Positions 10,966 to 44,232 of a DNA stretch of 64,000 nt are shown here, in pieces; position 1 is the first letter of the stretch; every line of letters starts with the position of its first letter. Origin of the DNA: Alloalcanivorax marinus (GTDB taxonomy: Bacteria > Pseudomonadota > Gammaproteobacteria > Pseudomonadales > Alcanivoracaceae); NCBI RefSeq assembly GCF_016906305.1, contig NZ_JADDOL010000003.1, positions 62,001 to 126,000 on the forward strand, read 5' to 3'. The translations under genes were made by a program, and so were the position numbers. The notes beneath the pieces are model-generated. The model had not been told where the DNA came from and ran no database searches. It saw only the letters and a list, made by a program, of their open reading frames with translations.

Positions 10966-11904
10966 TCACGGTTGCAGCGGGTGCAGGGGCAGGTAGTGGT
11001 CCACCAGCAGGGCGGTGAACAGCACGAACAGATAGACGATGGAATAACCAAAGGTTTTCATCGGCAGTTTGGGGTTGCTGCTGAAGCGCAGCCGCACCGC
11101 GTGCACCAGGAAAATGCCGCTGAGGATCACCGCGCTGACCAGATAGATCAGCCCGCTCATGCCGGTCAGGTAGGGCAGCAGCGAGCAGATGAACAGCAGG
11201 ATGGTGTAGTACAGCACCGACTCCCGGGTAAAGGGGATGCCGTGGGTCACCGGCAGCATGGGCACGTCCGCCTTGGCGTACTCGTCGGCGCGATGGATGG
11301 CCAGCGCCCAGAAGTGCGGCGGTGTCCAGACGAAGATGATCAGCACCAGCAGCCAGGCGTAGGGGTCCAGGGAATTGGTCACCGCCGCCCAGCCAAGCAG
11401 CGGCGGAATGGCGCCGGCGATGCCGCCGATCACGATGTTCTGCGGCGTGGCGCGCTTCAGATAGAGCGTATAGACGAAGGCATAGCCGACGAAGCCGAAC
11501 AGGGTCAGCCCGGCGGTCAGCGGGTTGACCAGGAAATAGAGCATCGCCATGGAGGCCAGCGCCAACAGCACCGCGAAGGTCACCGCCGCCTTCGGCGAAA
11601 TCTTGCCGGCCACCAGCGGGCGCTTCTCGGTGCGCTTCATGATGGCGTCGATCTTCTGATCCATGATCTGGTTGATCGCCGCCGACGCCATCATCGCCAG
11701 GGACAGCCCCACGAAGGCGGGGATGAAGATGTCCAGGGGCACCATGCCCGGCGGGTCGGTGGCCAGGAACATGCCGGCCACGGCGGTGACCATCAGCAGC
11801 ATCACCACGCCGGGCTTGGTCAGCGCCAGATAGTCGCGCCAGCCCGGGGTCGGGCGTTCACGCGACTCCGGCGGGGCGCTCATGGTCTTGTCGTTCGCGC
11901 TCAT
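10966..11904 (-). CDS. cyoE: Protoheme IX farnesyltransferase (heme O synthase)
   Basis: 312-residue UbiA-family prenyltransferase that adds farnesyl to protoheme to give heme O, the precursor of heme A for the oxidase encoded upstream. About nine membrane helices are visible; the two aspartate-rich regions are present as NQIMDQKIDAIMKRT (N-x3-D-x3-D) and, in the second half, the ADEYAKADVPMLPV segment. The ATG at 11904 has the Shine-Dalgarno GAGGGAG 6 bases upstream and is preferred to the ATG seven codons later. It is the last gene of the oxidase-biogenesis run, 28 bases after ctaA. Confidence 0.95.
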   Translation of the reverse strand: MSANDKTMSAPPESRERPTPGWRDYLALTKPGVVMLLMVTAVAGMFLATDPPGMVPLDIFIPAFVGLSLAMMASAAINQIMDQKIDAIMKRTEKRPLVAGKISPKAAVTFAVLLALASMAMLYFLVNPLTAGLTLFGFVGYAFVYTLYLKRATPQNIVIGGIAGAIPPLLGWAAVTNSLDPYAWLLVLIIFVWTPPHFWALAIHRADEYAKADVPMLPVTHGIPFTRESVLYYTILLFICSLLPYLTGMSGLIYLVSAVILSGIFLVHAVRLRFSSNPKLPMKTFGYSIVYLFVLFTALLVDHYLPLHPLQP

Positions 11905-26332: not shown

Positions 26333-26391
26333 TGTTTCACTTCCCCGGCGTGACGATGCTGACTCTACCAGAAACGACGAGGAGAAAGACC

Positions 26392-26805
26392 ATGCCCTGG
26401 CAATCCCTGAAGCACGCGCTTTGGTTCAACGCCGTCGGCACCGCCCTGCTGGGTGTCGTCCTGATCGCCGCCGCCGGGCCCCTGGCGGGCCTGTTCAGCG
26501 CCTACCCCGGCGCCGTGCCGCCGCTGCTGATGACCGGCGCCGGGGTAGTCTGCCTGCTGTTCGCCGTGGATCTGGCCTGGGCCGCCCGCCGCCACGGCGA
26601 CCGCCCCGGCCTGGCGCGCCTGCTGACCCTGGCGGACGCCGGCCTGGTGCTGGCGCTGCCGGTGGTGATGCTGGTGGCCGCGCCCCGGTTGTCGCTGTGG
26701 GGCCAGCTGCTGCTGGCGGACCTGGCCCTGATCACCGCCTTTCTGGTCGGGTGCCAATGGCGGGGCCTGGGCGCCGCCACGGTGGCCCTGGACGCCCGGC
26801 GATGA
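26392..26805 (+). CDS. Small four-helix membrane protein
   Basis: 137 residues with about four membrane helices and no recognised domain. The ATG at 26392 is preceded by GAGGAGAAAG, a strong ribosome site, and is preferred to an ATG 20 codons earlier. Its stop overlaps the start of the next membrane-protein gene (ATGA), so the two are coupled. Divergent from an XRE-type regulator that probably controls it. Confidence 0.75.
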   Translation: MPWQSLKHALWFNAVGTALLGVVLIAAAGPLAGLFSAYPGAVPPLLMTGAGVVCLLFAVDLAWAARRHGDRPGLARLLTLADAGLVLALPVVMLVAAPRLSLWGQLLLADLALITAFLVGCQWRGLGAATVALDARR

Positions 26806-27155
26806 GCGCGCTGATGCCGGTGGCGCTGGCCTTCCTGGCCATGGGGGCGGTGGCCATCGCGGCCCCCGACCGGGTGCTGGCCCTGGTGGATGTGCCGCGC
26901 CTGCCGTGGGCGGCCCGCAGCGAGGTGCGGGCGGTGTACGGCGGTTTCGGCCTGGCGGTGGGCGGCCTGTTGCTGGCGGCGCCGGCCCTGCCCGCCTGGC
27001 GGGCCGGCATCGTGGTGACGGTGGCGGTGGCCCTGCTGGGCATGGCCGGCGGGCGGCTGGCCGGCCTGTTGCTGGACCGGCGCTTGCCGGCCTGGCCGGC
27101 GGGCTTTCTGGCCACGGAATTGCTGCTGGCGGCACTGTTGCTGAGTACCCTTTGA
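26802..27155 (+). CDS. DUF4345-like small membrane protein
   Basis: 117 residues, about four membrane helices. The segment 'RSEVRAVYGGFGLAVGGLLLAA' resembles the core of DUF4345 proteins (R-x-E-x-R-A-x-Y-G-G). It overlaps the preceding gene by 4 bases, and the two have the same size and topology, so they may be partner subunits or an old duplication. Role unknown. Confidence 0.7.
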   Translation: MSALMPVALAFLAMGAVAIAAPDRVLALVDVPRLPWAARSEVRAVYGGFGLAVGGLLLAAPALPAWRAGIVVTVAVALLGMAGGRLAGLLLDRRLPAWPAGFLATELLLAALLLSTL

Positions 27156-27213
27156 CACCGGCCCCCGCCGGTTGCGGTATTCTTGGGGCGGGTAAGTCAA
27201 TCAAGGTGATACG

Positions 27214-27393
27214 ATGGGCGAGATCGTTCCGTTCAAAAAGCCGGCCCGTAAAAAGCCCAAAAAGGGACTGTGCCAGCACGGCTTCCACAAGTGGAAGGTG
27301 GTCAAGAACACCCGCTTCGACAGCCAGCGCGGTAAGCTGGTGACCCGCTATCAATGCGAACGTTGTGGTAAACGGAAGGTGGAGGCGCACTGA
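27214..27393 (+). CDS. Very small basic zinc-ribbon-like protein
   Basis: 59 residues starting MGEIVPFKKPARKKPKKG, strongly basic, with a Cys/His set that could bind zinc: C and H in 'LCQHGFHKW' and a C-x2-C pair in 'YQCERCGKRK'. The spacing suggests a split zinc ribbon and nucleic-acid binding, but no family is recognised. An A/G-rich ribosome site (AAGG) lies about 8 bases upstream. The stop is 1 base before the ATG of the DUF1272 gene, forming a tight operon of small cysteine-rich proteins and a hydrolase. Confidence 0.65.
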   Translation: MGEIVPFKKPARKKPKKGLCQHGFHKWKVVKNTRFDSQRGKLVTRYQCERCGKRKVEAH

Positions 27394-27394
27394 C

Positions 27395-27580
27395 ATGCTG
27401 GAAATGAAAGGCCACTGCGAACACTGCCAGCAGACCCTGGCCGAGGACGGCGAGGCCTACATCTGTTCCTACGAGTGCAGCTTCTGCGTGGACTGCTGCA
27501 CCGCCTTCAGCGCCACCTGCCCCAACTGCGCCGGGGAGCTGGTGCGCCGGCCCCGTCGCGCCACGGACCCCGCCGAATGA
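27395..27580 (+). CDS. DUF1272 family zinc-binding protein
   Basis: 61 residues of the DUF1272 family: start MLEMKGHCEHCQ, then 'AYICSYECSFCVDC' and 'TCPNCAGELVRRPRR', giving four cysteine pairs that fit a RING-like/treble-clef zinc fold. Function unknown. The ATG at 27395 is the family start, 1 base after the preceding stop, and the stop overlaps the ATG of the following alpha/beta hydrolase (ATGA). Confidence 0.88.
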   Translation: MLEMKGHCEHCQQTLAEDGEAYICSYECSFCVDCCTAFSATCPNCAGELVRRPRRATDPAE

Positions 27581-28428
27581 ACGGCGAGCCGTTCAGCGTC
27601 GACAACGGCGCCGGCTACCGGGTGCCCCTGAGCTGGTACCCGGCCGCCGCCGGCGCACCGATCCTGCTGGTGCTGCCGGCCCTGGGCGTGTCCGTGCGCT
27701 TCTACGACAAGTTGGCGGCGGCGCTGGCGGCGCGCGGCTTCAGCGTGGCGCTGATGGAGCAGCGCGGCCAGGGCGACAGCGCCCTGCGCCCGTCCCGGAA
27801 CAGCGACTGGGGGTTCGCCGAGGTGCTCGACCGGGATTTGCCGGCGGTGCTGGACTGGCTGCGCGACCATCACCCGGAAGCGCCGCTGTATTTGCTGGGC
27901 CACAGCCTGGGCGGCCACTTCGCCGCCCTTACCGCCGGGCGCCTGCCGGCGCGGGTGGATGGCCTGGTGCTGGTGGCCACCGGCAGCCCCTGGCTGAACG
28001 CCTTCGCCGGGCCCATGCGCAAGAAGATACGGCTGCTGACCCGGCTGATACCGGTCTGCAATCTGGTGCTGGGTTATTACCCCGGCGACCGCATCGGCTT
28101 CGGCGGCCGGGAGGCGCGTACCCTGATGGCCGACTGGCGCGGGCTGGCGCTCACCAACCGCTACCGGGCCCGGGGGCTGGACCAGGACCTGGACGCCGCC
28201 GTGGCCGCCTACCCGGGCCCGGTGCTGGCGATCCGCCTGGCGGACGACGCCTTCGCGCCGGCGGATTCGGTGCACGCGGTCACCGACAAATTCCGCGCCG
28301 CCCGTCTGATCGAGGAAACCGTGAACGCCAGCCAGCTCGGCGACAAGGCGGACCACTTCCGCTGGGCGCGCCAGGCCGACACCGTGGCGGAACGGGTGCG
28401 CATCTGGCACGGCGCCCCGGCGGACTGA
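27577..28428 (+). CDS. Alpha/beta hydrolase (serine aminopeptidase S33-like)
   Basis: 283 residues with an alpha/beta hydrolase fold: 'LVLPALGVSVRFYD' strand, 'MEQRGQGDS' loop and nucleophile elbow GHSLGG (Ser110); 'GPVLAIRLADDAFAP' supplies the acid and 'KADHFRWA' the likely histidine. Cytosolic, no signal peptide. Probably a lipase, esterase or monoacylglycerol-lipase-like enzyme. It overlaps the DUF1272 gene by 4 bases and ends about 110 bases before murI. Confidence 0.85.
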   Translation: MNGEPFSVDNGAGYRVPLSWYPAAAGAPILLVLPALGVSVRFYDKLAAALAARGFSVALMEQRGQGDSALRPSRNSDWGFAEVLDRDLPAVLDWLRDHHPEAPLYLLGHSLGGHFAALTAGRLPARVDGLVLVATGSPWLNAFAGPMRKKIRLLTRLIPVCNLVLGYYPGDRIGFGGREARTLMADWRGLALTNRYRARGLDQDLDAAVAAYPGPVLAIRLADDAFAPADSVHAVTDKFRAARLIEETVNASQLGDKADHFRWARQADTVAERVRIWHGAPAD

Positions 28429-28537
28429 GCGGGCCTTTGTCCCCGGGCCCCGGGGGCGGTACTCTTAGCGGCCAGAACCCGTCAGTGAAGCGCCGCCGAT
28501 CCGAGTGGCCGGGTCCCTGGAACACCGTCCGGAAACC

Positions 28538-29356
28538 ATGCCCTTGCCCACCCCAGCGTCCGAGCCGTCCATTACCACCGATCCCGTGCTGATCTTCGAT
28601 TCCGGCGTCGGCGGCTTGTCCGTGGTGCGCGCCCTGCGCGCACAGCTGCCCGGCGTGCCGCTGGCCTATGTGTGCGACAACGCGGCGCTGCCCTACGGCA
28701 CCAAGGCGGACGACTGGTTGGTGGCGCGCATCGTGGCGGTGTGCGCGGCGGCGGTGGCGGCCAGCGGCGCCCGCGCCCTGGTGGTGGCCTGCAACACCGC
28801 CAGCACCCTGGCCCTGGAGGCGTTGCGTGACCGTCTGGCGATCCCGGTGGTGGGCACGGTGCCGGCGATCAAGCCCGCCGCCGCCCTCAGCCACAGCGGC
28901 GTGATCGGCCTGCTGGCCACCTCGGCCACCGTGTGCCGGCCCTACACCGACCGCCTGATCGCCGACTTCGCCGCCGGCCGCACGGTGGTGCGGGTGGCCG
29001 CCGACACCCTGGTGGCCCAGGCGGAACGCCTGATCGCCGGCGAGCCGGTGGATCCGGCGGCGCTGGACCGGGGCCTCGCGCCGCTCTGGGCGAACCCGGC
29101 CCTGGATACGGTGGTGCTGGGCTGCACCCATTTTCCCCTGCTTGAGGGCGTGCTCGCCGAGCGCGCCCCGCGCCCGGTGCAATGGGTGGACTCCGGCGCC
29201 GCCATCGCCCGCCGGGTGGCGCAGGTACTCGATCCCCTGCCGCCCGCCGACGCCCAGGCCGATGACCCGGCCTGGGCCACCGGGCCCGTGTCGCCGGGTC
29301 TGACACGGGGCTTCGCCGGCTTCGGTTTCGGCGCGCCCGGGTTGTTGGTGCTCTGA
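28538..29356 (+). CDS. murI: Glutamate racemase
   Basis: 272-residue enzyme that converts L- to D-glutamate for peptidoglycan. The first catalytic region is IFDSGVGGLSV (Asp21, Ser22), the first cysteine is in ACNTAST (Cys85) and the second in LGCTHFPLL; the histidine follows it directly. An in-frame GTG 11 codons upstream is possible; I use the ATG at 28538. It is convergent with the carboxylase gene, 42 bases apart. Confidence 0.95.
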   Translation: MPLPTPASEPSITTDPVLIFDSGVGGLSVVRALRAQLPGVPLAYVCDNAALPYGTKADDWLVARIVAVCAAAVAASGARALVVACNTASTLALEALRDRLAIPVVGTVPAIKPAAALSHSGVIGLLATSATVCRPYTDRLIADFAAGRTVVRVAADTLVAQAERLIAGEPVDPAALDRGLAPLWANPALDTVVLGCTHFPLLEGVLAERAPRPVQWVDSGAAIARRVAQVLDPLPPADAQADDPAWATGPVSPGLTRGFAGFGFGAPGLLVL

Positions 29357-29398: not shown

Positions 29399-32300
29399 CT
29401 ATGGGGCGCCGATCACCATCACCGCCTGGCCGGCGTTGATCTGCTGGCCCTCCTGGCGGGCCACGTGGACCACCTTGCCGGCTTCCGGGGCGGCCACCTC
29501 GATCTCCATTTTCATGGCTTCCAGGATCGCCACGGGCTGGCCTTCGCTGACCGTGTCGCCTTCCTTCACCAGCAGCTTCCAGATATTGCCGGCCGTGGGC
29601 GCTTCCACCGGGGTGCCGTCGGGCAGGCCGTCGGCGGCGCCGGCGTTCAGGTCCTGCTGGGATTCGAAATGCAGCTGGCCGCTCTCTTCCCAGCGTTGCA
29701 GTTCCTCGTCGAAGGCCCGGTTGCGGGCCTCGGTGAAGTCGCGGATGGACCCTGCGTTGTGTTCCAGAAAACGCTGGTATTCGCCCAGGTTGAAGGTGGT
29801 GTCCTCCACCTTGAACGGGTAGCGGCCCTTGGGGAAATCCCGGCGGATTTGCTGTAGCTCCTCGGCGGAGACTTCATAGAAGCGGATCTGGTCGAAGAAG
29901 CGCAGCAGCCAGGGCTGGCTGAACGCCTCGGTGCGGTGAAAGCGGTTCCACATTTGGAAGGTGCGCCCCACGAACTGGTAGCCGCCGGGGCCTTCCATGC
30001 CGTACACGCACAGATAGGAGCCGCCGATACCCACCGAGTTTTCCGCGGTCCAGGTGCGCGCCGGGTTGTACTTGGTGGTCACCAGCCGGTGGCGCGGGTC
30101 GTAGGGGGTGGCCACCGGCGCGCCCAGATAGACGTCGCCCAGGCCCATCACCACGTAACTGGCCTCGAACAGAATCCGTTTCACCTCGTCGACGCTGCTC
30201 AGGCCGTTGATGCGGCGGATGAACTCGATATTGCTCGGGCACCAGGGGGCGTCCTTGCGCACCGACTGCGTGTATTTCTCGATGGCCAGCCGGCAGGCCT
30301 CGTCGTCCCAGCTCAGCGGCAGATGGACAATGCGCGAGGGCACTTCCAGATCGTCCTGTTTGTCCAGGGTCCGCTCGGCGTCCTTGAGCAGAGCCAGCAG
30401 CTCCGCCCGGGGCAGCACCGCGGGGTCGAAATGCACCTGCAGGGAGCGGATGCCCGGGGTCAGTTCCAGCACGCCGTCCAGGTTCTTCTCCTGCAGCCAC
30501 AGCATCAGGGCGTGGGCGCGGAAACGCAGCCGCAGGTCCAGCTCCAGCGGGCCGTATTCCACCAGCACATAGCGGTCGCCGGCGGCCCGGTAAACCACCG
30601 CCGGGCTCTCCGCCTGTTCCTCCAGCCGGCCCAGCACCGGCGTGGTCACCGCCGCCGGTGTCACGGTGCGGGCCGGGGCGCTCAAGGTGTCGAGGCAGCG
30701 GTCCTGTTCGGCGGCCAGGGCGTCCGCGTCGTCCAGGCTTACCGGCACGAAGCGCAGGGTGTCGCCGGCCTTCAACTGGCCCAGCTTCCAGCGGTCCGCC
30801 CGGATCACCGTGGCCGGGCAGACGAAGCCGCCCAGGGAGGGGCCGTCCGGGCCCAGGATCACCGGCATGTCGCCGGTGAAATCCACGCTGCCGATGGCAT
30901 AGGCGTTGTCGTGAATATTGGAGGGGTGCATGCCCGCCTCGCCGCCGTCCCGGCGTGCCCACTGGGGCTTCGGGCCCACCAGACGCACGCCGGTGCGGCT
31001 GGAGTTGTAGTGCACCTGCCAGTCGGCGCTGAAGAAGGTCTCGATGTCCTGGTCGGTGAAGAAGTCCGGCGCGCCGTGGGGGCCGTAGATCACCCGCAGT
31101 TCCCAGCGGTCGCCGAGGGCGGGCTTCAGCGCCTCCGGCACCGCCGGTGACGTCGCGCCATCGGTGGGCTCGCCCAGATGCAGCACGTCGCCGGTGCGCA
31201 GCGCGCGACCACCGTGGCCGCCGAACTGCCCCAGGGTGAAGGTGCTGCGCGAGCCCAGATAGGGCTGGCACCGCAGGCCGCCGGCCACCGTCAGGTAGGC
31301 GCGGGCGCCGTGGCCGCTTACCTTGCCGAGCTTGAGGGTCTGGCCGGCGCCGACCGCGATGGCCTGGTAGGCGTCCACCGGCTCGCCGTCCAGGGTGGCG
31401 TTCATATCGGCGCCGGTGAGGGCGACGCGGGTGGCGCGATTAAAACGCAGGGTGGGGCCGTTGAGGGTGAACTCCAGGCCGGCGGCGGTTTCCTGGTTGC
31501 CCAGCAGCCGGTTGCCGAGCCGGAAGCTGAGGGCGTCGAAGGGCCCGGACGGCGGCACCCCCACCGGCCAGTAACCCTGGCGGCCAGGGTAATCCTGCAC
31601 CGTGGTCAGGGTGCCGCCGGCCAGCACGTCCAGGGTGTCGGGCACATAGTGGAACTGGTTGAGATAGCGGGTGGTCATCTCGCCGTTCCGGAACACCGGG
31701 TCGGCCAGCACCGCGCCCAGGTACTGACGGTTGGTCTCGATGCCCTCGATCAGAGTGTGCTCCAGGGCGTCTTCCAGGGCCGCCAGCGCGGCGGCGCGGT
31801 CCGCCCGGTGAACAATCACCTTGGCCAGCATGGGGTCGAAAAACGGCGACACGGTCAGGCCCGGTTCGATCCAATGGTCGATGCGCAGCCCTTCCGTTCG
31901 CGGGGCGGTGTCGGGAAAGGCCACGGCGGTGAGCAGGCCGGCGCAGGGCTGGAAATCCTTGTTCGGATCCTCCGCGTACAGGCGCGCCTGGATGGCGTGG
32001 CCACGGGGCCGCAGCGGCGCCGCCATCGCCGTCAGGTCGTCCAGCTCGCCGGCGGCCAGGCGCACCATCCAGTCCACCAGATCCACCCCGTAGACCGCCT
32101 CGGTGACGCCGTGCTCCACCTGCAGCCGGGTGTTCACTTCCAGAAAATAAAAATCGTTGCTGTCCTGGTCGACGATGAATTCCACGGTGCCCGCGTTGCG
32201 GTAGCTGACCGCCGCCATCAGCCGGCGGGCGGTGTCGTGCAGGGTGGCGCGCACGGCGTCCGGCAGATGCGGCGCCGGGGTTTCCTCCAGCACCTTCTGG

Positions 32301-33001
32301 TGTCGGCGTTGCGCGGAGCAGTCGCGCTCGCCCAGGGCCACGGCGGTGCCCCGGCCGTCGCCGAATATTTGCACCTCGATGTGCCGGGCCCGCTCGATGT
32401 ATTTCTCCAGGAACACGCCGTCGTTGGAGAAATTGTTGGCGCTGAGCCGGCGCACCGTGTCCCAGGCTTTCGTCAGTTCGTCGTCGTCGCGGCAGATCTG
32501 CATGCCGATGCCGCCGCCGCCGGCGGTGCTTTTCAGCATCAACGGGTAGCCGATCCCGGCGGCGGCCCGGCGGGCCGCGTCCAGATCGTCCAGCAGGCCG
32601 GTGCCGGGCAGCAGGGGCACGGCGTTGGCCTCGGCCAGCGCGCGGGCGGTGTGCTTGAGGCCGAAGTCGCGCATCTGTTCCGGGGTCGGCCCGATAAAGG
32701 CGATGCCGTTGGCCTCGCAGCGCTCCACGAAGCCCGGGTTCTCGCTGAGAAAGCCATAGCCGGGGTGCACCGCGTCGATGCCGTGTTCGGCCATCAACGC
32801 GAACAGCTTGTCCTGATTCAGATAGGTTTGCGCGGCGTTGCCCTCACCCAGGCTCAGGGCCAGATCGGCCTCGGCCACATGGCGGGAGTCCGCGTCGGCT
32901 TCGGCGTACACGGCCACGCCGGTGACGCCCAGGGCACGCAGGGTGCGCAGGATTCGGGTGGCGATGGCGCCACGGTTGGCGATCAGTACCTTCTTGAACA
33001 T
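29399..33001 (-). CDS. Biotin-dependent guanidine carboxylase (urea carboxylase family)
   Basis: 1200 residues with the full urea-carboxylase domain order: biotin carboxylase (about 1-450; VLIANRGAIATRI, ATP-grasp glycine loop 'STAGGGGIGM', 'ERDCSAQRRHQKVLEE'), carboxyltransferase parts of the allophanate-hydrolase-like type KipA/AHS2 (about 470-790; 'TTVQDYPGRQGYWPVGVPPSGPFD') and KipI/AHS1 (about 830-1040), and a biotinyl domain with EAMKM (biotin Lys1164). The ATG at 33001 is chosen; 14 codons upstream lack similarity. Family annotation would say urea carboxylase, but the guanidine-I riboswitch and two DUF1989 genes in the same operon indicate guanidine as substrate, giving carboxyguanidine. 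No allophanate hydrolase gene follows. Confidence 0.92.
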   Translation of the reverse strand: MFKKVLIANRGAIATRILRTLRALGVTGVAVYAEADADSRHVAEADLALSLGEGNAAQTYLNQDKLFALMAEHGIDAVHPGYGFLSENPGFVERCEANGIAFIGPTPEQMRDFGLKHTARALAEANAVPLLPGTGLLDDLDAARRAAAGIGYPLMLKSTAGGGGIGMQICRDDDELTKAWDTVRRLSANNFSNDGVFLEKYIERARHIEVQIFGDGRGTAVALGERDCSAQRRHQKVLEETPAPHLPDAVRATLHDTARRLMAAVSYRNAGTVEFIVDQDSNDFYFLEVNTRLQVEHGVTEAVYGVDLVDWMVRLAAGELDDLTAMAAPLRPRGHAIQARLYAEDPNKDFQPCAGLLTAVAFPDTAPRTEGLRIDHWIEPGLTVSPFFDPMLAKVIVHRADRAAALAALEDALEHTLIEGIETNRQYLGAVLADPVFRNGEMTTRYLNQFHYVPDTLDVLAGGTLTTVQDYPGRQGYWPVGVPPSGPFDALSFRLGNRLLGNQETAAGLEFTLNGPTLRFNRATRVALTGADMNATLDGEPVDAYQAIAVGAGQTLKLGKVSGHGARAYLTVAGGLRCQPYLGSRSTFTLGQFGGHGGRALRTGDVLHLGEPTDGATSPAVPEALKPALGDRWELRVIYGPHGAPDFFTDQDIETFFSADWQVHYNSSRTGVRLVGPKPQWARRDGGEAGMHPSNIHDNAYAIGSVDFTGDMPVILGPDGPSLGGFVCPATVIRADRWKLGQLKAGDTLRFVPVSLDDADALAAEQDRCLDTLSAPARTVTPAAVTTPVLGRLEEQAESPAVVYRAAGDRYVLVEYGPLELDLRLRFRAHALMLWLQEKNLDGVLELTPGIRSLQVHFDPAVLPRAELLALLKDAERTLDKQDDLEVPSRIVHLPLSWDDEACRLAIEKYTQSVRKDAPWCPSNIEFIRRINGLSSVDEVKRILFEASYVVMGLGDVYLGAPVATPYDPRHRLVTTKYNPARTWTAENSVGIGGSYLCVYGMEGPGGYQFVGRTFQMWNRFHRTEAFSQPWLLRFFDQIRFYEVSAEELQQIRRDFPKGRYPFKVEDTTFNLGEYQRFLEHNAGSIRDFTEARNRAFDEELQRWEESGQLHFESQQDLNAGAADGLPDGTPVEAPTAGNIWKLLVKEGDTVSEGQPVAILEAMKMEIEVAAPEAGKVVHVARQEGQQINAGQAVMVIGAP

Positions 33002-33084
33002 GGGGTCGCTCGCTGGCTGGGCGGGCCGTCCCGCCGTGGTCACGGATCACCGGGGTCGTCCCCGGCGCGGCGCGCGGGCGCCGG

Positions 33085-33723
33085 TCAGTGCCAGATCAGC
33101 ACTTCGATGGGCGTCGGGTCGTAGCCGTTGCAGGGGTTGTTGAGCTGCGGGCAGTTGGAAATCAGCACCAGGGTGTTCATCAAGGCCTTCATTTCCACGT
33201 ACTTGCCCGGCGCGGAGATGCCGTCCGCGAAGGTCAGGCCGCCCTCGGCGGTGACCGGCACGTTCATGAAGAAATTGATGTTGTGGGCGATATCGCGCTT
33301 GTCCAGGCCGTACTCTTCGTGTTCGTTGATGGCCAGCATCCAGCTGTCCCGGCAGGCGTGCATGCAGCGCTTTTTCAGGTCGTAGCGCACCGTGTTGCTC
33401 TCGGTGGCGCAGGCGCCGCCCAGGGTGTCGTGACGGCCGCAGGTGTCGGCGGTGATTTCCAGCATCGGCCGGTTACGGTTGGAGCGCAGCACGGAGCCGG
33501 CGGTGAGATACACGTTGCCCTGCTCACGCACCGTGTCCTGCGCGCTGTAGCGCTCGGCGGTGTCGTCGGCGTTGTAGAACAGGGTGTCGGCGGCCTGGTT
33601 GCCTTCCAGGTCGAGAATGCGGAAGGTCTCGCCGGCGCGCACCACTTTCAGGAAGTAGTCCCCGGCGGGCACCACCTGGCGGAAGGCGGCGTCGTCGGGT
33701 TTAAACGGACTTTCCTTGATCAT
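33085..33723 (-). CDS. DUF1989 protein, carboxyguanidine deiminase subunit (UAAP2 type)
   Basis: 212 residues, DUF1989 family (urea amidolyase-associated protein 2). The conserved blocks '[17 protein letters not shown]', '[14 protein letters not shown]' and 'CMHACRDSW' supply cysteine and histidine ligands for a metal site. In characterised bacteria the two DUF1989 proteins of such operons form a heteromeric carboxyguanidine deiminase (CgdA/CgdB) that turns carboxyguanidine into allophanate and ammonia. The ATG at 33723 has AGGAGGAG 8 bases upstream. It lies between its partner and the carboxylase. I do not assign which of the two is CgdA. Confidence 0.9.
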
Positions 33724-33739: not shown

Positions 33740-34456
33740 TCAGGCGCCCAGGTAATACAGGCGGTTGTTCTCGAAGGCGCGGGCGTTCTCCGGGCGGAAG
33801 TTGAGGCAGTAATCGTCCTCGGTGACCGGCTCCGCCTTGAGCATCTCCACCCGGACTTTTTTCTTCGGGTAGGCCGGCGCCGGGTTGAGCGGGTGCGGGC
33901 AGGTGTGCAGCAGCACCAGGGTGTCCATTTCGAAACGCAGGGTGACCCGGGCGCCGGCCTTGGCCGCCGTGGGGTCGAAGCGCAGGGCGCCGTCGTCGCC
34001 GCTGACCACCTTGCTGAACACATTCAGGTTGGCGGCCAGGTCGCGCTCGGTGAGGCCGTACTTGGCCATCTCCACCAGAAAGCTGTCGTGGCCGCTCAGG
34101 TACCAGCCGTTGCGGTGTTCCTGGTAGCCGTGCTCGCCGTACTTCGCCTTGAGCGCGTCCGGGTGCAGATTGCCGCACACGGTGTCGTGCCAGCCGAAGT
34201 CGTCCTCGACGATGGAGGCGAACACCCGGCCCATGTCGGAGTACAGGCAGTTGCCCCGGGTCAGTTTGAAGGTGTGCTGGCCCTTGAGGGTGTCCGGCGC
34301 GTTGTAGCGTTCGCGTTTTTCTTCCGGGTTGTAGAACAGCAGGCCCACGTTGGCGCCGCCGTCCAGGTCGGTGAGGCGCAGGGCGGTGCCGCGACGCATC
34401 CGGAACGACCAATGGGCGCCGCCGGGCATGGTGTATTCATACAGCGGTTCGGTCAT
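33740..34456 (-). CDS. DUF1989 protein, carboxyguanidine deiminase subunit (UAAP1 type)
   Basis: 238 residues, DUF1989 family (urea amidolyase-associated protein 1). Visible landmarks: [17 protein letters not shown] at the start, '[23 protein letters not shown]', the metal-site-like '[13 protein letters not shown]' and '[14 protein letters not shown]'. It would pair with the next gene to deiminate carboxyguanidine. The ATG at 34456 overlaps the stop of the transporter ATPase gene by 4 bases and has AAGGAG upstream, so transport and catabolism are translationally linked. Confidence 0.9.
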
Positions 34457-35247
34457 GGCGTGGCTCCTTGTAGCAAACGGGAGGTGTCGTGCACGTTGCG
34501 GGCGATGGCTTGCAGGGTGCCCTTCTTGCTGTCGCCCACGGGCAGGTCGTAGGTGAGGCGGGCGCCGTAGCTTTCCGGCGACTGGGCGTCCCGGCGCACC
34601 TTGTCGAGCACCCACAGGCGGGTGCCCAGATAGAAGCCCTCCGCCAGATCGTGGGTGATCATGAACACGGTGAGCCCCTGTTCGCGCCACAGGTCCAGCA
34701 CCAGCTGGTGCATGTCCCGGCGGATGCCCGGGTCCAGGGCGCCGAACGGTTCGTCCAGCAGCAGAATGCGGGGTTTCTTGATCAGCGCCTGGGCCAGGGC
34801 CAGGCGTTGTTGCATGCCGCCGGACAGCTCGTGGGGGTACTTGTCCAGGGCGGCGCCCAGGCCCACCGCCTCCAGCATTTCCACGGCGCGGGCGCGGATC
34901 GCCTTGCGGGTGGCGCCAAAGGCGCGCCCCAGCCAGCGGTTGGCGTCCAGCTCGCCGCACAGGCTGGCGTTCTGCAGGGCGGTGAGGTGCGGCAGCACCG
35001 AGTAGCGCTGGAACACGATGCCGCGGGTTTCGTCCGGCTCGTCGGGAATCGGCGTGCCGTCCAGCAGCAACTGACCCCGGCTGGGCCGTTCGGTGCCCAG
35101 CAGCATTTTCAGCAGGGTGGTCTTGCCGCAGCCGGAGGCCCCCACCACGGTGATGAACTCGCCTTCTTCCACGCGGGCGTTGAGGCGTTCCAGTACCACC
35201 TGGTCGCCGTACTCCTTCCACAGATTGTTCAGTTCGATGATGGCCAC
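34453..35247 (-). CDS. ABC transporter ATPase (NitT/TauT type), guanidine operon
   Basis: 264-residue nucleotide-binding subunit. Walker A GASGCGKTT (36-44), Q-loop 'GIVFQRYSVLPHL', ABC signature LSGGMQQRLALAQAL, Walker B LLLDEPFGALD and the switch histidine in MITHD are all intact. Energises import through the permease encoded 10 bases upstream. The family includes taurine, nitrate and cyanate importers; in this operon the substrate is probably guanidine or a compound that yields it. Confidence 0.93.
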   Translation of the reverse strand: MAIIELNNLWKEYGDQVVLERLNARVEEGEFITVVGASGCGKTTLLKMLLGTERPSRGQLLLDGTPIPDEPDETRGIVFQRYSVLPHLTALQNASLCGELDANRWLGRAFGATRKAIRARAVEMLEAVGLGAALDKYPHELSGGMQQRLALAQALIKKPRILLLDEPFGALDPGIRRDMHQLVLDLWREQGLTVFMITHDLAEGFYLGTRLWVLDKVRRDAQSPESYGARLTYDLPVGDSKKGTLQAIARNVHDTSRLLQGATP

Positions 35248-35257
35248 GGTTCCCTCC

Positions 35258-36073
35258 TTAACGGGCCTGGTGGAACCAGGGGTAGCGCCAGCGGGAATAG
35301 CGGGCCAGCGCGAAATCGATGGCGAACGCCAGGAAGGTGATCCAGGCCACGTAGGGCAGAATCACGTCCATGGCCAGATAGCGCCGCACCAGGAAGATGC
35401 GATAGCCGAGCCCGTCGGTGGCGGCGATGGCCTCGGCGGCGATCAGGAACAGCCAGGCGGACCCCAGCGACAGCCGCACCGCGCTGATCAGGCGCGGCAT
35501 CACCTGGGGCCACACCAGCCGAAGAATGATCTGCCAGGTGTTGGCGCCCAGGGTCTGCATCTTGATCACCTGCTCGGCGGGAATTTCCTCGGCGCGCTGC
35601 TGCAGATCGCGGATCAGGAACGGCGTAATGCCGATCACGATCAGCACCACCTTGGCCAGCTCGCCCAGGCCGAACACGATGAACAGGATCGGCAGCACCG
35701 CCAGGGGCGGCACCAGCGACAGGCCGGTGACCAGCGGCGCGATGCCGGCGCGCACCAGCGGCAGGGCGCCGGTGGCGATGCCCACCACCAGCCCGATGGC
35801 GGCGCTGATGGCCACCCCCAGGGCCAGCCGGGTGAGGCTGGCCAGGGTGTCCTGCCACAGCAGGTACTCGCCGGTGCGTTTGCTGGGCTCGAAGGCCATG
35901 CGCTGGATGGCGTCCACGAAGCTGGCCAGATCCGGCAGCAGCTTGTCGTTGGGGTTGGCCGCCAGGCGCGCGTCGGAGGCCACCAGATAGAGCACCACCA
36001 GGATCACGAACGGCAGCAGCCCCAGGGCCCAGCGGCCCACCGGCCCGGCTTGACGGTTGATCAGCTTCTTCAT
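35258..36073 (-). CDS. ABC transporter permease (NitT/TauT type), guanidine operon
   Basis: 271 residues with about six membrane helices and the EAA-type cytoplasmic loop 'KMQTLGANTWQIILRLVWPQ' that contacts the ATPase. A basic N-terminus (MKKLINRQ) precedes the first helix. It stands between the binding-protein and ATPase genes, 25 and 10 bases apart. Confidence 0.93.
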   Translation of the reverse strand: MKKLINRQAGPVGRWALGLLPFVILVVLYLVASDARLAANPNDKLLPDLASFVDAIQRMAFEPSKRTGEYLLWQDTLASLTRLALGVAISAAIGLVVGIATGALPLVRAGIAPLVTGLSLVPPLAVLPILFIVFGLGELAKVVLIVIGITPFLIRDLQQRAEEIPAEQVIKMQTLGANTWQIILRLVWPQVMPRLISAVRLSLGSAWLFLIAAEAIAATDGLGYRIFLVRRYLAMDVILPYVAWITFLAFAIDFALARYSRWRYPWFHQAR

Positions 36074-36098: not shown

Positions 36099-37169
36099 TC
36101 AAAGCTCGCCGTCGGCGGCCATCTTCATGTAGGTCGGGTCGAAGCGCAGTTTCACGTTGCCGTCGCTGCCGAACACGCCGGAGGGGGTTTCCACGCCCAC
36201 GAAGCCGGCGTCCGGGGCGCCTTCGCCCAGCAGACCGTGCTTGAAGGAGAACTCCGCCACCCGCTGCATGGTGGTTTTCACGTCCGGACTGTTGACGAAG
36301 TTCACCGCCTCGCTGGCGTCGTAGAACACGCGGGTGGCCTTGAGCTGGGCCTCGAATCCGGCCCGGTCGGTGCCGGCGATCTCGCCCATGGCGGCACGGG
36401 CCTGCTTACCGGTTTCTCCGTCATCGCGCATGTCCGCCATGATCTCGTACCAGGCGCCGGCCAGGGCCTTGCCCAGTTTCGGGTTGGCCTTGAGGGTGTC
36501 GGTATTGACCACCATCAGGTCGATGATCTCGCCGGGAATTTGTGAGGAGTCGAACACCTGATGGGCGCCGGGCTGTTCGGTGATGGCGCTGAGCAACGGG
36601 TTCCAGGTGACCACCGAGGTGACATCGTCGGTTTGATAGGCCGCCACCAGATCCGCGTCGGAGGTGTTCACCACGGTCACGTCGCGCTCGCTCATGCCCA
36701 CGGTTTCCAGGGCCCGGGCCAGCAGATAGTGGGAAACGGACAGCTCCACCAGATTGACGTTCTGCCCTTTGATGTCGGCGAGCCGGGTTTTGTCCTTGAG
36801 GACGATGCCGTCGTTGCCGTCGGAAAAGTCGCCGACGATCAGGGCGGTGGTGTCCACGCCGCCGGCGGCGGGAATGGTCAGCGCGTCCATGTTGGTCATG
36901 GTGCAGCCGTCGTACTGGCCGGCGGTGTACTGGTTGATGGACTCGATGTAGTCGTTGATCTGCACCACGTCGATGTTGATGCCGTACTTGTCGGCCCATT
37001 TGTCGACGATGCCCTGGGCGGCGCCGTACTGCCAGGGAATCCAGCCCACGTAGATGGACCAGCAGACTTTGAAGTCATCCCGTTGGCCGGCGGCCAGGGC
37101 AGGTTTGGGCAGGGTGGAGAGAGCCAGCAGCGCGGCCGCGGAAAGGCAAGCAGTCAGAATACGGGTCAT
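36099..37169 (-). CDS. ABC transporter substrate-binding protein, guanidine operon
   Basis: 356 residues with a signal peptide (about 1-26, ending ALAAGQ) and an NMT1/TauA-like periplasmic binding fold: 'CWSIYVGWIPWQYGAAQGIVDKWA', 'GQYDGCTMTNMDAL' and 'TDDVTSVVTWNPLL'. It delivers the substrate to the permease. First structural gene of the operon; the ATG at 37169 has AGGAGG 8 bases upstream. It is preceded by an 11-codon leader ORF and a guanidine-I riboswitch. Confidence 0.93.
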   Translation of the reverse strand: MTRILTACLSAAALLALSTLPKPALAAGQRDDFKVCWSIYVGWIPWQYGAAQGIVDKWADKYGINIDVVQINDYIESINQYTAGQYDGCTMTNMDALTIPAAGGVDTTALIVGDFSDGNDGIVLKDKTRLADIKGQNVNLVELSVSHYLLARALETVGMSERDVTVVNTSDADLVAAYQTDDVTSVVTWNPLLSAITEQPGAHQVFDSSQIPGEIIDLMVVNTDTLKANPKLGKALAGAWYEIMADMRDDGETGKQARAAMGEIAGTDRAGFEAQLKATRVFYDASEAVNFVNSPDVKTTMQRVAEFSFKHGLLGEGAPDAGFVGVETPSGVFGSDGNVKLRFDPTYMKMAADGEL

Positions 37170-37185
37170 GTCGACCTCCTTCAGG

Positions 37186-37221
37186 CTATGACGGTGAGGA
37201 ATCCAATGACACTGTCGTCAT
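37186..37221 (-). CDS. 11-residue leader ORF between riboswitch and binding-protein gene
   Basis: ATG at 37221 opens an 11-codon frame (MTTVSLDSSPS) ending with TAG 16 bases before the binding-protein ATG. Its Shine-Dalgarno GGGAGGAGA is the 3' edge of the riboswitch aptamer, 4 to 8 bases from the ATG. The ATG lies in a hairpin, CCATGAC/GTCATTGG with a 6-base loop, which extends through GAGGA/TCCTC pairing and could hide both the ribosome site and start. It may be a translated leader coupling the riboswitch to the operon, or the hairpin may be the expression platform and the ORF accidental. Confidence 0.4.
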   Translation of the reverse strand: MTTVSLDSSPS

Positions 37222-37225
37222 GGTG

Positions 37226-37317
37226 TCTCCTCCCGGGCTTTTGTCCCGCCGTGTAACCTTGCAAGAAGGTCGATCGCTCTCGGACCAGTCGTGGGCGAGG
37301 CCCACCGGAACCCTAGC
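37226..37317 (-). ncRNA. Guanidine-I riboswitch (ykkC class)
   Basis: Read on the minus strand, the leader contains the conserved blocks of the guanidine-I aptamer in order and with normal spacing: CTAGGGTTCCG, a variable hairpin (GTGGGCCTCGCCCAC), ACTGGTCCGAGAG, a second hairpin (ACCTTCTTGCAAGGT), then ACACGGCGGGACAAAAGCCC and GGGAGGAGA. These are the signature bases of the P1-P3 core that bind guanidinium. It lies 57 bases upstream of the ABC binding-protein gene, so it should switch on import and breakdown of guanidine. No typical intrinsic terminator follows, which suggests translational control. Confidence 0.95.
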
Positions 37318-37372
37318 GATCCATTTTTCCGGATTGTGCGAGTCGTGATGGCCACAGACGCCATTCGATTCC

Positions 37373-37388
37373 TGCGTGGGTCCACGCA
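37373..37388. promoter_or_regulatory. 7-bp inverted repeat overlapping the operon promoter
   Basis: TGCGTGG-N2-CCACGCA (37373-37379, 37382-37388) overlaps the -12 part and probable start point of the sigma-54-like promoter. It could be an operator or a hairpin at the 5' end of the leader RNA. Confidence 0.4.
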
Positions 37389-37400
37389 AGTCCGATGCCA
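37384..37400 (-). promoter_or_regulatory. Sigma-54-like (-24/-12) promoter of the guanidine operon
   Basis: Minus-strand CTGGCAT-N5-TTGCG (CTGGCATCGGACTTGCGT) keeps the invariant GG and GC exactly 10 bases apart and matches TGGCAC-N5-TTGCW except for two positions. Transcription would begin near 37371, about 55 bases before the riboswitch. This fits nitrogen control of a nitrogen-source operon. I find no clear paired NtrC sites upstream. Confidence 0.6.
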
Positions 37401-37492
37401 GTCCGGGCAAGTGGCTGATTCAAAAGGGGGAAGGCGGGCGGGGCGGGCCAGGGCGTGAGCGTTAATGGGGCTTCGGGTGGGCCGCGATGGTG

Positions 37493-37519
37493 CGCCGTGC
37501 CCCGGAGTGGGGCACGGCG
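37493..37519 (-). terminator. Strong GC hairpin after the secreted dienelactone hydrolase gene
   Basis: Perfect 11-bp stem CGCCGTGCCCC/GGGGCACGGCG with a 5-base loop, 8 bases beyond the stop of the minus-strand hydrolase gene. There is no T run. It separates that gene from the guanidine-operon promoter 93 bases away and may also mark an upstream activator region. Confidence 0.55.
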
Positions 37520-37526
37520 GGCGAGG

Positions 37527-38300
<774 letters not shown>

Positions 38301-39905: not shown

Positions 39906-40229
39906 GTGAAACAGGGCACGGGCTGGTGGGTTTACATGCTGCGCTGCGCCGACGGCTCGCTGTACACCGGCGTCACCACCGATGTGCTGCGCCGCTGGAA
40001 GGAGCACAACGGCGGCCCGCGGGGCGCCCGTTACACCCGGGTGCGGCGCCCGGTGGCCCTGGTGCTGTGCGTGGAAGTGCCCGACCGGGCCCGCGCCGGC
40101 CGCCTGGAAGCGCGCCTCAAGGGGCTCACCCGGGCGCGCAAGGAACGCTTGATCCGCGCCGTCACGGTTGCCAACGGCGCCGGGAGTTGCTTGACTGCCG
40201 ACACTTCTGAACAGGAGATTCTTGCATGA
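39906..40229 (+). CDS. GIY-YIG nuclease-domain protein (UPF0213 type)
   Basis: 107 residues. The GIY-YIG core is 'WWVYMLRCADGSLYTGVTTDVLRRWKEHN' split as VYMLRC...LYTGVT, followed by 'ARYTRVRRPVALVL' and a basic helix, as in YhbQ/UPF0213 proteins. Begins with GTG at 39906, with AAGGAG about 10 bases upstream; no ATG gives the full domain. The stop overlaps the ATG of the LemA lipoprotein gene (ATGA). Members are single-domain nucleases of uncertain role in DNA repair. Confidence 0.9.
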   Translation: MKQGTGWWVYMLRCADGSLYTGVTTDVLRRWKEHNGGPRGARYTRVRRPVALVLCVEVPDRARAGRLEARLKGLTRARKERLIRAVTVANGAGSCLTADTSEQEILA

Positions 40230-40816
40230 ACCTTTGGCGCGCCTTCGTGCTGGCCTGGCTGGCCATGACTCTGGCCGGCTGTGGCATCAACAACATCCCC
40301 ACCTACGACGAGCAGGTCAAGGCGGCCTGGTCCCAGGTGGAAAACCAATACCAGCGCCGCGCCGACCTGGTGCCCAACCTGGTCAACACGGTGAAGGGCT
40401 TCGCCGCCCAGGAGCGGGAGGTGCTGGTGGAAGTCACCGAGGCGCGCGCCAAGGTGGGCTCGATCCAGGCCGGCGAGGACATCCTCAACGACCCGCAGAA
40501 GTTCAAGCAGTTCGAGCAGGCCCAGAATCAGCTGGGGTCGGCCCTGCAGCGACTGATGGTGGTGGTGGAACGCTACCCGGAGCTGAAGTCCAACCAGAAC
40601 TTCCTGGCGCTGCAGTCGCAGTTGGAAGGCACCGAGAACCGCATCGCGGTGGCGCGCCGGGACTACATCGAGGCGGTGCGGCAATACAACACCGAGATCC
40701 GGACCTTCCCCGGCCGCATCTGGCACAGCCTGCTGTACAGCGAGCTGGAGCCGCGCGAGAACTTCGAAGCCACCACGGAGAACGCCGAGCAGGCGCCCTC
40801 CGTCAACTTTGAATGA
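40226..40816 (+). CDS. LemA family lipoprotein
   Basis: 196 residues with a lipoprotein signal (lipobox LAGC, lipidated Cys19) and the LemA domain: 'NQYQRRADLVPNLVNTVKG', 'VVVERYPELKSN' and 'ENRIAVARRDYIEAVRQYN'. It is followed by two TPM-domain genes, a well-known arrangement (LemA - TPM - TPM). Probably works in the envelope with them. The second LemA of the window (10288-10875) has a membrane helix in place of a lipobox. Confidence 0.93.
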   Translation: MNLWRAFVLAWLAMTLAGCGINNIPTYDEQVKAAWSQVENQYQRRADLVPNLVNTVKGFAAQEREVLVEVTEARAKVGSIQAGEDILNDPQKFKQFEQAQNQLGSALQRLMVVVERYPELKSNQNFLALQSQLEGTENRIAVARRDYIEAVRQYNTEIRTFPGRIWHSLLYSELEPRENFEATTENAEQAPSVNFE

Positions 40817-40835
40817 ACCGGATCGTGAGTAAACC

Positions 40836-41576
40836 ATGACGCTGACGCGACACGGGCTGGCCGTGCTGCTCGGGCTGCTGCTGACCGCGGCGGCCTGGGC
40901 GGCGCCGGACTTTCCCGCCCTCACCGGCCGGGTGGTGGACAACGCCAACCTGCTGACAACCGCCCAGGAACAGGCGCTCACCGAAAAGCTGGCCGCCGAG
41001 GAGCAGCAAACCTCCAACCAGGTGGTGGTGGTGACGCTGCCCGACCTGCAGGGCCTGACCATCGAGGAGTACGGCTACCAGCTGGGCCGCGAATGGGGCA
41101 TCGGCCAGGAGGGCAAGGACAACGGCGTGCTGCTGATCGTCGCCCCCAACGAGCGCCGCATTCGCATCGAGGTGGGCTACGGCCTGGAGGGCGCGCTCAC
41201 CGACGCGCTCTCCTCGGTGATCATCCAGCGGGAAATCCGCCCGGCCTTCCGCACTGGCGACTTCGCCGGCGGCATCAATGCCGGCGTGGACGCGATCCGC
41301 GCCGCCATCGCCGGCGAGTACCAGGCGGAGCCGGCCAAGAAGGGCGGCGGGCAACTGGGCACGGTGCTGATCTATTTGATGGTGCTGGTGTTCATCACCA
41401 TTTTCCTGGGGCTCGGCGCCCTGGGCGGCGGTGGCCGTGGCGGTCGCGGCGGCGGCGCCGTGTTCCTGCCCATGGGCGGGGGCTTCGGCGGCGGCGGAGG
41501 CGGAGGTTTTGGCGGCGGCGGCTTCGGTGGCGGCGGCGGTGGTTTCGGCGGCGGCGGTGCCTCGGGAGGCTGGTAG
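40836..41576 (+). CDS. TPM-domain (YgcG-type) exported protein with glycine-rich tail
   Basis: 246 residues: signal peptide (about 1-19), TPM/Repair_PSII_Psb32 domain (about 25-160; 'LTGRVVDNANLLT', 'NQVVVVTLPDLQGLTIEEYGYQLGREWGIG', 'RIRIEVGYGLEGALTDA'), one membrane helix (about 173-193) and a C-terminal tail made almost only of glycine and phenylalanine (last 55 residues). The tail is likely flexible. The family is linked to photosystem repair in plants and of unclear function in bacteria. Ends directly before the next TPM gene. Confidence 0.92.
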   Translation: MTLTRHGLAVLLGLLLTAAAWAAPDFPALTGRVVDNANLLTTAQEQALTEKLAAEEQQTSNQVVVVTLPDLQGLTIEEYGYQLGREWGIGQEGKDNGVLLIVAPNERRIRIEVGYGLEGALTDALSSVIIQREIRPAFRTGDFAGGINAGVDAIRAAIAGEYQAEPAKKGGGQLGTVLIYLMVLVFITIFLGLGALGGGGRGGRGGGAVFLPMGGGFGGGGGGGFGGGGFGGGGGGFGGGGASGGW

Positions 41577-42188
41577 ATGTTATTGAACGAAGAGGAACAG
41601 AAACGGGTGGCCCGGGCGATCGCGGCCATCGAAAAAGACACCGACGCGGAACTGGTCACGGTGCTGGCCCGCCAGTCCGACGACTACCGCTACATTCCAC
41701 TGTTGTGGGCGGCGCTGTTGTCGCTGCTGGTGCCCCTGGCGCTGGCGTTCCTGCCGATCTGGCTGAGCGCCCTGGAAACCCTGCTGGCCCAGTGGACCGT
41801 GCTGGTGCTGCTGGGGCTGTTGTTCCGCTGGCCGCCGCTGATGATGGCCCTGGTGCCGCGCCGGGTGAAGCAATGGCGCGCCGCCAACCTGGCCCGCCGT
41901 ACCTTCCTCGATCAGGGCCTGCACCACACCAAGGGTGGCACCGGCCTGCTGATCTTTGTCAGCGAGGCCGAGCATTACGTGGAAATCCTGGCCGACCGGG
42001 GCATCGCCGAGAAGGTCCCGGACGAACGCTGGCAATCCATCGTCGACACCTTCACCGCCCATGTGAAGCAGGGCGAGGTGCTGAACGGCTTCCTGGAATG
42101 CATCGCCTCCTGCGGCGATGAGCTGATCCTCAAGATCCCGGCCACGGAACAGAAGAACGAACTGCCCAACCATCTGGTGCTGCTCTAG
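41577..42188 (+). CDS. TPM-domain membrane protein
   Basis: 203 residues. The TPM domain is interrupted early by two membrane helices (about 38-60 and 65-85); the C-terminal part has 'HHTKGGTGLLIFVSEAEHYVEILADRGIAEKV', the typical second half of the domain. It starts at the base after the preceding stop codon, so it is co-translated with the YgcG-type gene. Third gene of the LemA-TPM-TPM set. Confidence 0.9.
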   Translation: MLLNEEEQKRVARAIAAIEKDTDAELVTVLARQSDDYRYIPLLWAALLSLLVPLALAFLPIWLSALETLLAQWTVLVLLGLLFRWPPLMMALVPRRVKQWRAANLARRTFLDQGLHHTKGGTGLLIFVSEAEHYVEILADRGIAEKVPDERWQSIVDTFTAHVKQGEVLNGFLECIASCGDELILKIPATEQKNELPNHLVLL

Positions 42189-44155: not shown

Positions 44156-44232
44156 TGGTAGCAAGGGGCGGACTTGAACCGCCGACCCCAGCATTATGAG
44201 TGCTGTGCTCTAACCAGCTGAGCTACCTTGCC
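44156..44232 (-). tRNA. tRNA-Met (anticodon CAT)
   Basis: 77 bases including an encoded CCA. Minus strand: acceptor GGCAAGG pairing CCTTGCT, D-arm AGCTCAGCTGGTTAGAGC, anticodon arm AGCACTCATAATGCT with CAT, variable loop GGGGTC, T-arm GGCGGTTCAAGTCCGCC. The sequence resembles the elongator tRNA-Met of E. coli, lacking initiator features (three G-C pairs in the anticodon stem). A CAT anticodon could also be lysidine-modified tRNA-Ile2, but the general sequence favours Met. Confidence 0.92.

Follow-up and report, generated by a model that had tools for sequence, protein, structure and literature searches.

A probable guanidine import and degradation operon behind two guanidine riboswitches in Alloalcanivorax marinus, with a possible translational mode for the first of them

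Which substrate is served by an operon that begins with a guanidine riboswitch and carries genes named after urea, and how does that riboswitch act on the genes behind it? The locus that raises these questions lies in a 64,000-nucleotide stretch of the Alloalcanivorax marinus genome (assembly GCF_016906305.1, contig NZ_JADDOL010000003.1, positions 62,001 to 126,000), here called the window, whose own numbering is used throughout. The original prediction placed a guanidine-I riboswitch aptamer at 37226 to 37317 on the minus strand, upstream of an ATP-binding cassette (ABC) transporter, two DUF1989 genes, and a urea-carboxylase-family gene on the same strand. Family matches located all of these genes, and we conclude with high confidence that they make up an operon for importing and degrading guanidine, controlled by two guanidine riboswitches that act in series. 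In the order of transcription, its parts are as follows:

37228 to 37327, minus strand: guanidine-I (ykkC) riboswitch (Gd-I) aptamer (RF00442, 93.9 bits; gathering score, 63).
36099 to 37169, minus strand: substrate-binding protein of an ABC transporter, probably a guanidine importer (TIGR03427, 573 bits; NMT1 families).
35258 to 36073, minus strand: ABC transporter permease (PF00528).
34453 to 35247, minus strand: ABC transporter ATPase (PF00005).
33740 to 34456, minus strand: UAAP1, a DUF1989 protein, probable carboxyguanidine deiminase subunit CgdA (TIGR03425, 342 bits, with the protein scanned from its second codon on; PF09347).
33085 to 33723, minus strand: UAAP2, a DUF1989 protein, probable carboxyguanidine deiminase subunit CgdB (TIGR03424, 336.5 bits; PF09347).
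33021 to 33067, minus strand: guanidine-II (mini-ykkC) riboswitch (Gd-II) between cgdB and the carboxylase gene (RF01068, 45.5 bits; gathering score, 32).
29399 to 33001, minus strand: predicted guanidine carboxylase (annotated as urea carboxylase) of 1,200 amino acids with D707 and D956 (TIGR02712, 1857 bits).

The first riboswitch is real and was placed by cmscan at 37228 to 37327, with a match that spans the full length of the RF00442 model (E value of 9.6e-16 over the whole window) and is the single guanidine-I match in the 4.05-Mb genome. The Infernal search that had been proposed as a check thus scored well above the cut-off (93.9 versus 63 bits), so the prediction does not fall for want of a covariance-model hit. 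The Gd-I helices were paired in 99.6% of 525 cells (21 distinct sequences), covariation was 0.372 versus 0.150 in shuffled controls (0 of 500), and pair changes were also well above those in slid versions. Eight of the 25 pairs, located in P1, its upper helix, and P2, had changed on both sides; P3 and five core pairs showed no standard change and are hence uninformative. Up to an E value of 10, the aptamer stretch matched only RF00442 and, at chance level, mir-46; whether the library holds the subtype-2 (ppGpp/PRPP) models was unchecked, and the gene context is that of guanidine.

The second riboswitch, overlooked by the original prediction, sits in the 83-nucleotide gap ahead of the carboxylase gene, the exception in an operon whose genes otherwise overlap by at most 4 nucleotides (the ATG of the UAAP1 gene overlaps the stop codon of the ATPase gene) or are separated by 10 to 25 nucleotides. 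Its hairpin loops, ACGA and ACGG, fit the two-hairpin ACGR pattern. Both hairpins were paired in 206 of 206 cells (19 sequences), in which 6 of the 11 pairs had changed on both sides.

As had been foreseen, routine annotation would file the locus under urea metabolism: the NCBIfam names of the binding protein, the carboxylase, and the two DUF1989 proteins all refer to urea, and the permease and the ATPase reached no NCBIfam cut-off among the matches listed. The carboxylase belongs to the urea carboxylase family (cut-off of TIGR02712, 1304 bits). CgdA and CgdB are two distinct adjacent paralogues, each above the cut-off of its own model, and are the sole DUF1989 matches of the whole genome. The nearest solved structures to the binding protein were chains that bind taurine, sulfonate, and nitrate, all with weak matches.

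Guanidine carboxylases have been defined by two Asp residues, at positions 1584 and 1330 in K. lactis numbering, of which the latter separates them from urea carboxylases (PMC11410670). Counted on the alignment, D707 of the operon enzyme corresponds to position 1330 and D956 to position 1584, and the presence of both signature residues agrees with the earlier assignment of the enzyme as a probable guanidine carboxylase. The genome encodes a second carboxylase, 55% identical to that of the operon, which has Asn at the first of these positions. The gene for this paralogue comes directly after that for an allophanate hydrolase, and a gene for cyanuric acid amidohydrolase lies close by on the other strand; no guanidine-I or guanidine-II match was found on the contig of this paralogue. 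Asn also occupied this position in all 30 of the best-scoring carboxylases from a search of the family (loci L172 to L201, among which L185 is the paralogue of this genome itself), and 28 of these adjoined an allophanate hydrolase match, L174 and L177 being the two that did not. A further set of 80 named loci was formed from the best 80 of 180 found with the operon carboxylase as the query; here the residue was Asp in 79, an agreement that is partly selection because the operon carboxylase itself was the query. The remaining locus, L118, is a point against, with a carboxylase that has the urea-type Asn despite both guanidine riboswitches upstream.

How the first riboswitch controls the operon is predicted from folds and alignments of its leader, in which four elements matter:

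37263 to 37272, minus strand: 5' arm of aptamer helix P2 plus loop bases, the predicted ligand-free anti-Shine-Dalgarno (pairing probability with the Shine-Dalgarno of 1.00 in the free ensemble).
37196 to 37234, minus strand: hairpin between the aptamer and the Shine-Dalgarno, GGGAGGAG...TTCCTC with an inner stem (from leader alignments and folds).
37184 to 37194, minus strand: predicted anti-P2 element CCGTCATAGCC (predicted OFF-state partners, the P2 3' arm and ACACGG).
37175 to 37180, minus strand: Shine-Dalgarno (SD) AGGAGG of the binding-protein gene (from the sequence and pairing tests).

Without guanidine, the SD of the first gene would pair with the P2 5' arm and the P2 3' arm would pair with the element at 37184 to 37194, with the hairpin in between; this hairpin appears in both modelled states, and its inner stem is kept in 15 aligned leaders. 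Guanidine binding would hold P2 and P3 and free the SD. According to folds of the growing chain, the aptamer would form first and the OFF pairing would follow once the SD had been transcribed, giving a translational ON switch decided during transcription. The modelled gap between the ON and OFF states is 7.1 kcal/mol, compared with ~6.2 kcal/mol equivalent to a dissociation constant (KD) of 44 uM, the value for the guanidine-I riboswitch of Vreelandella boliviensis (PMC12508155). Because the ligand would hold P2 and P3 and thereby free the SD, the first switch in the window most likely acts on translation, a reading of the models that we favor with moderate confidence. We did not find the P2 arm described as an anti-SD in a literature coverage that was partial, so that its absence from print is not established.

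Two other candidates were rejected. A leader peptide, encoded by an 11-codon open reading frame (ORF) at 37186 to 37221 with its own SD after the aptamer, was discarded as neither frame nor sequence was kept in aligned relatives. In the other candidate, an OFF switch would result from the TTCCTC strand of the hairpin alternating between the SD and the tail of the aptamer; folds of the whole leader gave the P2-arm pairing instead.

The predicted pairing recurred in relatives within the family and across the order. Among 18 family leaders cut at the start codon, the SD paired with the P2 arm with a probability of at least 0.86 in 17; folded with some coding sequence, which covered 15 of the 18 (the window and 14 of 17 named loci, with L093, L096, and L152 left out), the probability was at least 0.62 in 13. 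The order-wide set held 114 Gd-I occurrences at 102 loci, 108 of them with leaders of 40 to 130 nucleotides, and was reduced to 38 leaders by a filter of <80% identity; six loci with a known Gd-I match (L025, L118, L139, L143, L147, and L153) yielded no occurrence. Pairing of each P2 arm with its own SD region gave -15.1 kcal/mol versus -11.9 kcal/mol when permuted (0 of 20,000), and the advantage of own pairing was again unmatched (0 of 20,000) in a subset of 15 leaders at <65% identity, kinship among leaders being only partly removed by such permutation controls. Full folds reached a pairing probability of 0.5 in 31 of the 38 (permutations, 0 of 20,000). The duplex test was replicated in a held-out set, for which 40 new regions, 14 of them lost to the search pattern, left 26 and finally 18 new non-redundant leaders (-12.4 versus -10.2 kcal/mol; 2 of 20,000).

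A number of results weigh against a translational switch built in this way, or limit its reach. (i) With coding sequence included, the pairing failed in L100 (0.11) and L110 (0.06), and L100 failed also when cut at the start codon (0.09); the anti-P2 pairing reached at least 0.6 in only 10 of the 15 family leaders. (ii) Mismatched leaders reached the threshold of 0.5 in 34% of cases, and shuffling the flanks of the window's SD while keeping its core lowered the pairing from 1.00 to 0.49 only, so part of the signal is that of any strong SD against this P2 arm. (iii) Shuffling the middle of the window's leader left the pairing at 0.94, and the hairpin and the anti-P2 element are therefore not needed for it. 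(iv) In the 16 of 38 leaders that allowed comparison with other SD sequences of the same locus, the own SD beat the mean in 13 and was best in 8 (p = 0.02), and in just 22 of the 38 did the P2 arm outdo all aptamer windows that did not overlap it. (v) Holding the aptamer raised the unpaired probability of the SD in 35 of the 38 leaders, a small gain on average over the 38 (from 0.17 to 0.35), and four of the seven SD-region bases were still paired in the modelled ON state. (vi) The held-out folding test held in only 8 of the 18 leaders, with 270 of 20,000 permutations equally good. (vii) None of five Gd-II segments clearly preferred its own SD in 28 non-redundant cases, the best being the linker (288 of 5,000). 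Taken with the pairing tests, the models suggest that the translational mode is likely in the family of the window and that it also occurs in the order at large but is by no means universal there.

The foremost alternative is that the first riboswitch acts on transcription, through intrinsic or Rho-dependent termination, and that the SD pairing is incidental. The literature leans this way, as guanidine-I riboswitches are described as usually (PMC12186494), presumably (PMC12508155), or generally (PMC11410670) transcriptional; Rho-dependent termination, moreover, does not require a hairpin, and blocked translation can lead to it. However, a simple scan found no terminator-like site in 36900 to 37700, a run of four T residues occurred in only 5 of the 38 non-redundant leaders, and the SD context fits its own P2 arm better than those of others. 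We regard transcriptional control here as possible and rather unlikely.

The two-switch layout recurs among relatives. Among 293 genomes surveyed in the order, 77 had Gd-I and 73 had Gd-II at an E value of ≤0.001 (76 and 63, respectively, scored above the cut-offs), and 51 had both. In 47, Gd-II followed Gd-I on the same strand at a distance of no more than 15 kb (2.7 to 4.9 kb to the nearest Gd-I), and no other arrangement of the two within 15 kb was seen among the 293 genomes; some of the paired Gd-II matches, and the Gd-I match of genome G192, fall short of the curated cut-off. In a search with models built here, the 80 named loci had upstream of the carboxylase gene both switches in 32 cases, Gd-I only in 27, Gd-II only in 10, and neither in 11, although the upstream sequence was short in 3 of the 10 Gd-II-only and 6 of the 11 riboswitch-free loci. 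Gd-I was ~1.5 kb upstream in 26 of the 27 Gd-I-only loci, most of them from Marinobacter, and 42 of the 43 Gd-II matches in this set began 55 to 117 nucleotides before the carboxylase start. By this position, Gd-II would separately gate the large carboxylase, its mode being taken from the literature.

Several loci carry more than two switches. On the minus strand of L089 (genome G061), two paralogous binding-protein genes stand in a row, each behind its own Gd-I (10147 to 10250 and 11758 to 11861), with Gd-II at 5616 to 5660 before the carboxylase gene; the spacing in G231 resembles this, and L088 (G191) and G025 also have two Gd-I elements upstream of one Gd-II. In L088, one Gd-I stands before the genes for the permease and the ATPase, and a second before that for the binding protein; the two parts may be separate transcripts, since long plus-strand ORFs lie between them. 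One switch per cistron fits translational control. We consider it somewhat probable, on the basis of the models, that guanidine-I riboswitches in the Alcanivoracaceae and a good part of the order act translationally, with the P2 5' arm as the anti-SD and each switch controlling its own cistron. As separate observations, L141 has a second Gd-II (3578 to 3625) ~1.5 kb upstream of the usual one and right after Gd-I (3368 to 3474), and Marinobacter loci such as L137 (14186 to 14299) and L126 (15314 to 15421) have a second Gd-I several kilobases downstream of the carboxylase gene.

As for the pathway, families and published routes suggest that the ABC transporter would import guanidine, the biotin enzyme of the operon would carboxylate it, and the two DUF1989 proteins would deiminate the product to allophanate. 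No allophanate hydrolase (AtzF) was found inside the operon. The genome has one AtzF match above the cut-off (779.6 bits), on another contig (G000:C45:252925-254574), so the last step of the pathway is encoded outside the operon; on the same grounds as above, this enzyme, beside the Asn-type urea carboxylase, would yield the ammonia. No match to urease alpha was found in the genome. The original prediction of an operon for guanidine use thus stood in its core, given the signature Asp residues and an aptamer above threshold, and had to be amended in two respects, as there are two riboswitches instead of one and the allophanate hydrolase is encoded elsewhere.

This separation is usual in the genus. 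Among 46 genomes of the family, an allophanate hydrolase was found above the cut-off in 38, a carboxylase in 40, and two carboxylase matches in 33; in each of the 13 members of the genus, the hydrolase gene lay apart from the operon-type carboxylase gene, but such genes were adjacent in a small number of other genera in the family, as in G223 and G324. A hydrolase match was present in 31 of the 80 named loci, within 250 nucleotides 3' of the carboxylase gene in 26 of these, and in none of the 17 loci from Alcanivorax or Alloalcanivorax. In G295 (G295:C1:3205428-3206669), which has one carboxylase match, the hydrolase is in pieces in several frames, reflecting either a sequencing error or a decayed gene. 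On the C45 contig of the present genome (L091), the strand opposite the allophanate hydrolase and Asn-type urea carboxylase genes encodes a binding protein as well as a cyanuric acid amidohydrolase (528 bits), which makes this a possible locus for nitrogen from cyanurate and urea.

Guanidine is toxic, and the operon could instead serve its detoxification or export, as Gd-I control in Alcanivorax has been read (PMC9788540). A second genomic Gd-II (L002; G000:C52:98187-98231), which precedes a gene for a 103-amino-acid protein of the small multidrug resistance (SMR) family, probably a guanidine exporter, is on this side. However, a periplasmic binding protein is the mark of an importer, the genes downstream give a route to allophanate, and export is probably the task of the SMR gene, whose Gd-II suggests that the cell has an exporter in addition to the catabolic operon. 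We consider an export or detoxification operon improbable, while detoxification may be a by-product. That the operon serves urea utilization, as automatic annotation has it, is very improbable: the operon carries two guanidine riboswitches, its carboxylase has Asp at each of the guanidine-signature positions, and the genome encodes a distinct carboxylase of the Asn type next to allophanate hydrolase.

The layout of a guanidine operon under two switches has already been published for V. boliviensis and enterobacteria, and the regulatory reading of Gd-I is the new part. The V. boliviensis operon (PMC12508155) has Gd-I at its front, an ABC importer, cgdA and cgdB, and Gd-II between cgdB and the carboxylase gene, as here; KD values, methylguanidine as a ligand of the second switch, and the use of guanidine for growth are reported for this bacterium. 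It also contains mgdH, mgdL, and atzF, whereas here atzF is on another contig and a racemase-family gene follows, and its Gd-I is presumed to be transcriptional, whereas a translational mode is predicted here. The operons of Raoultella, Erwinia, and Klebsiella (PMC12186494) likewise have Gd-I with the importer and deiminase genes and Gd-II with the downstream carboxylase gene; in these, allophanate hydrolase goes with the carboxylase, which is not so in this operon. In Alcanivorax dieselolei (PMC9788540), Gd-I is upstream of the binding-protein gene of a putative urea transporter, as here, and its leader was detected by dRNA-seq and ssRNA-seq; in the accessible part of that paper, Gd-II is reported only before a SugE-like gene and Gd-I control is read as export. 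A second Gd-II ~4.2 kb downstream of Gd-I is present in genomes G182 and G080. Compared with the urea carboxylase and allophanate hydrolase (urea amidolyase) system, which is represented here by the 55% identical paralogue, the operon enzyme differs in having Asp where Asn occupies the substrate position.

Around the operon, a convergent racemase-family gene (28505 to 29356) follows the carboxylase gene, and a tRNA gene lies at 44159 to 44232 on the minus strand (70 bits). A Pfam search of 26368 to 27396, 27469 to 28410, 40034 to 41062, and 41093 to 42118 returned no family. The nearest named loci are from Alloalcanivorax and Alcanivorax, and the closest carboxylase among the loci fetched (94% identical) is that of the metagenome-assembled genome Alcanivorax sp. 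ALOHA_A2.5_2.

For the organism, which is related to marine bacteria that degrade oil, these results assign probable guanidine uptake and use as a nitrogen source to Alloalcanivorax, in an operon that current models name after urea, and provide a clean contrast within one genome between a guanidine-type and a urea-type carboxylase. For the family and the order, they offer a testable translational mode of the guanidine-I riboswitch in a group where the literature says transcriptional. Such a mode could explain the two or three switches per locus; if true, the P2 arm as an anti-SD would explain loci with stacked switches such as L089.
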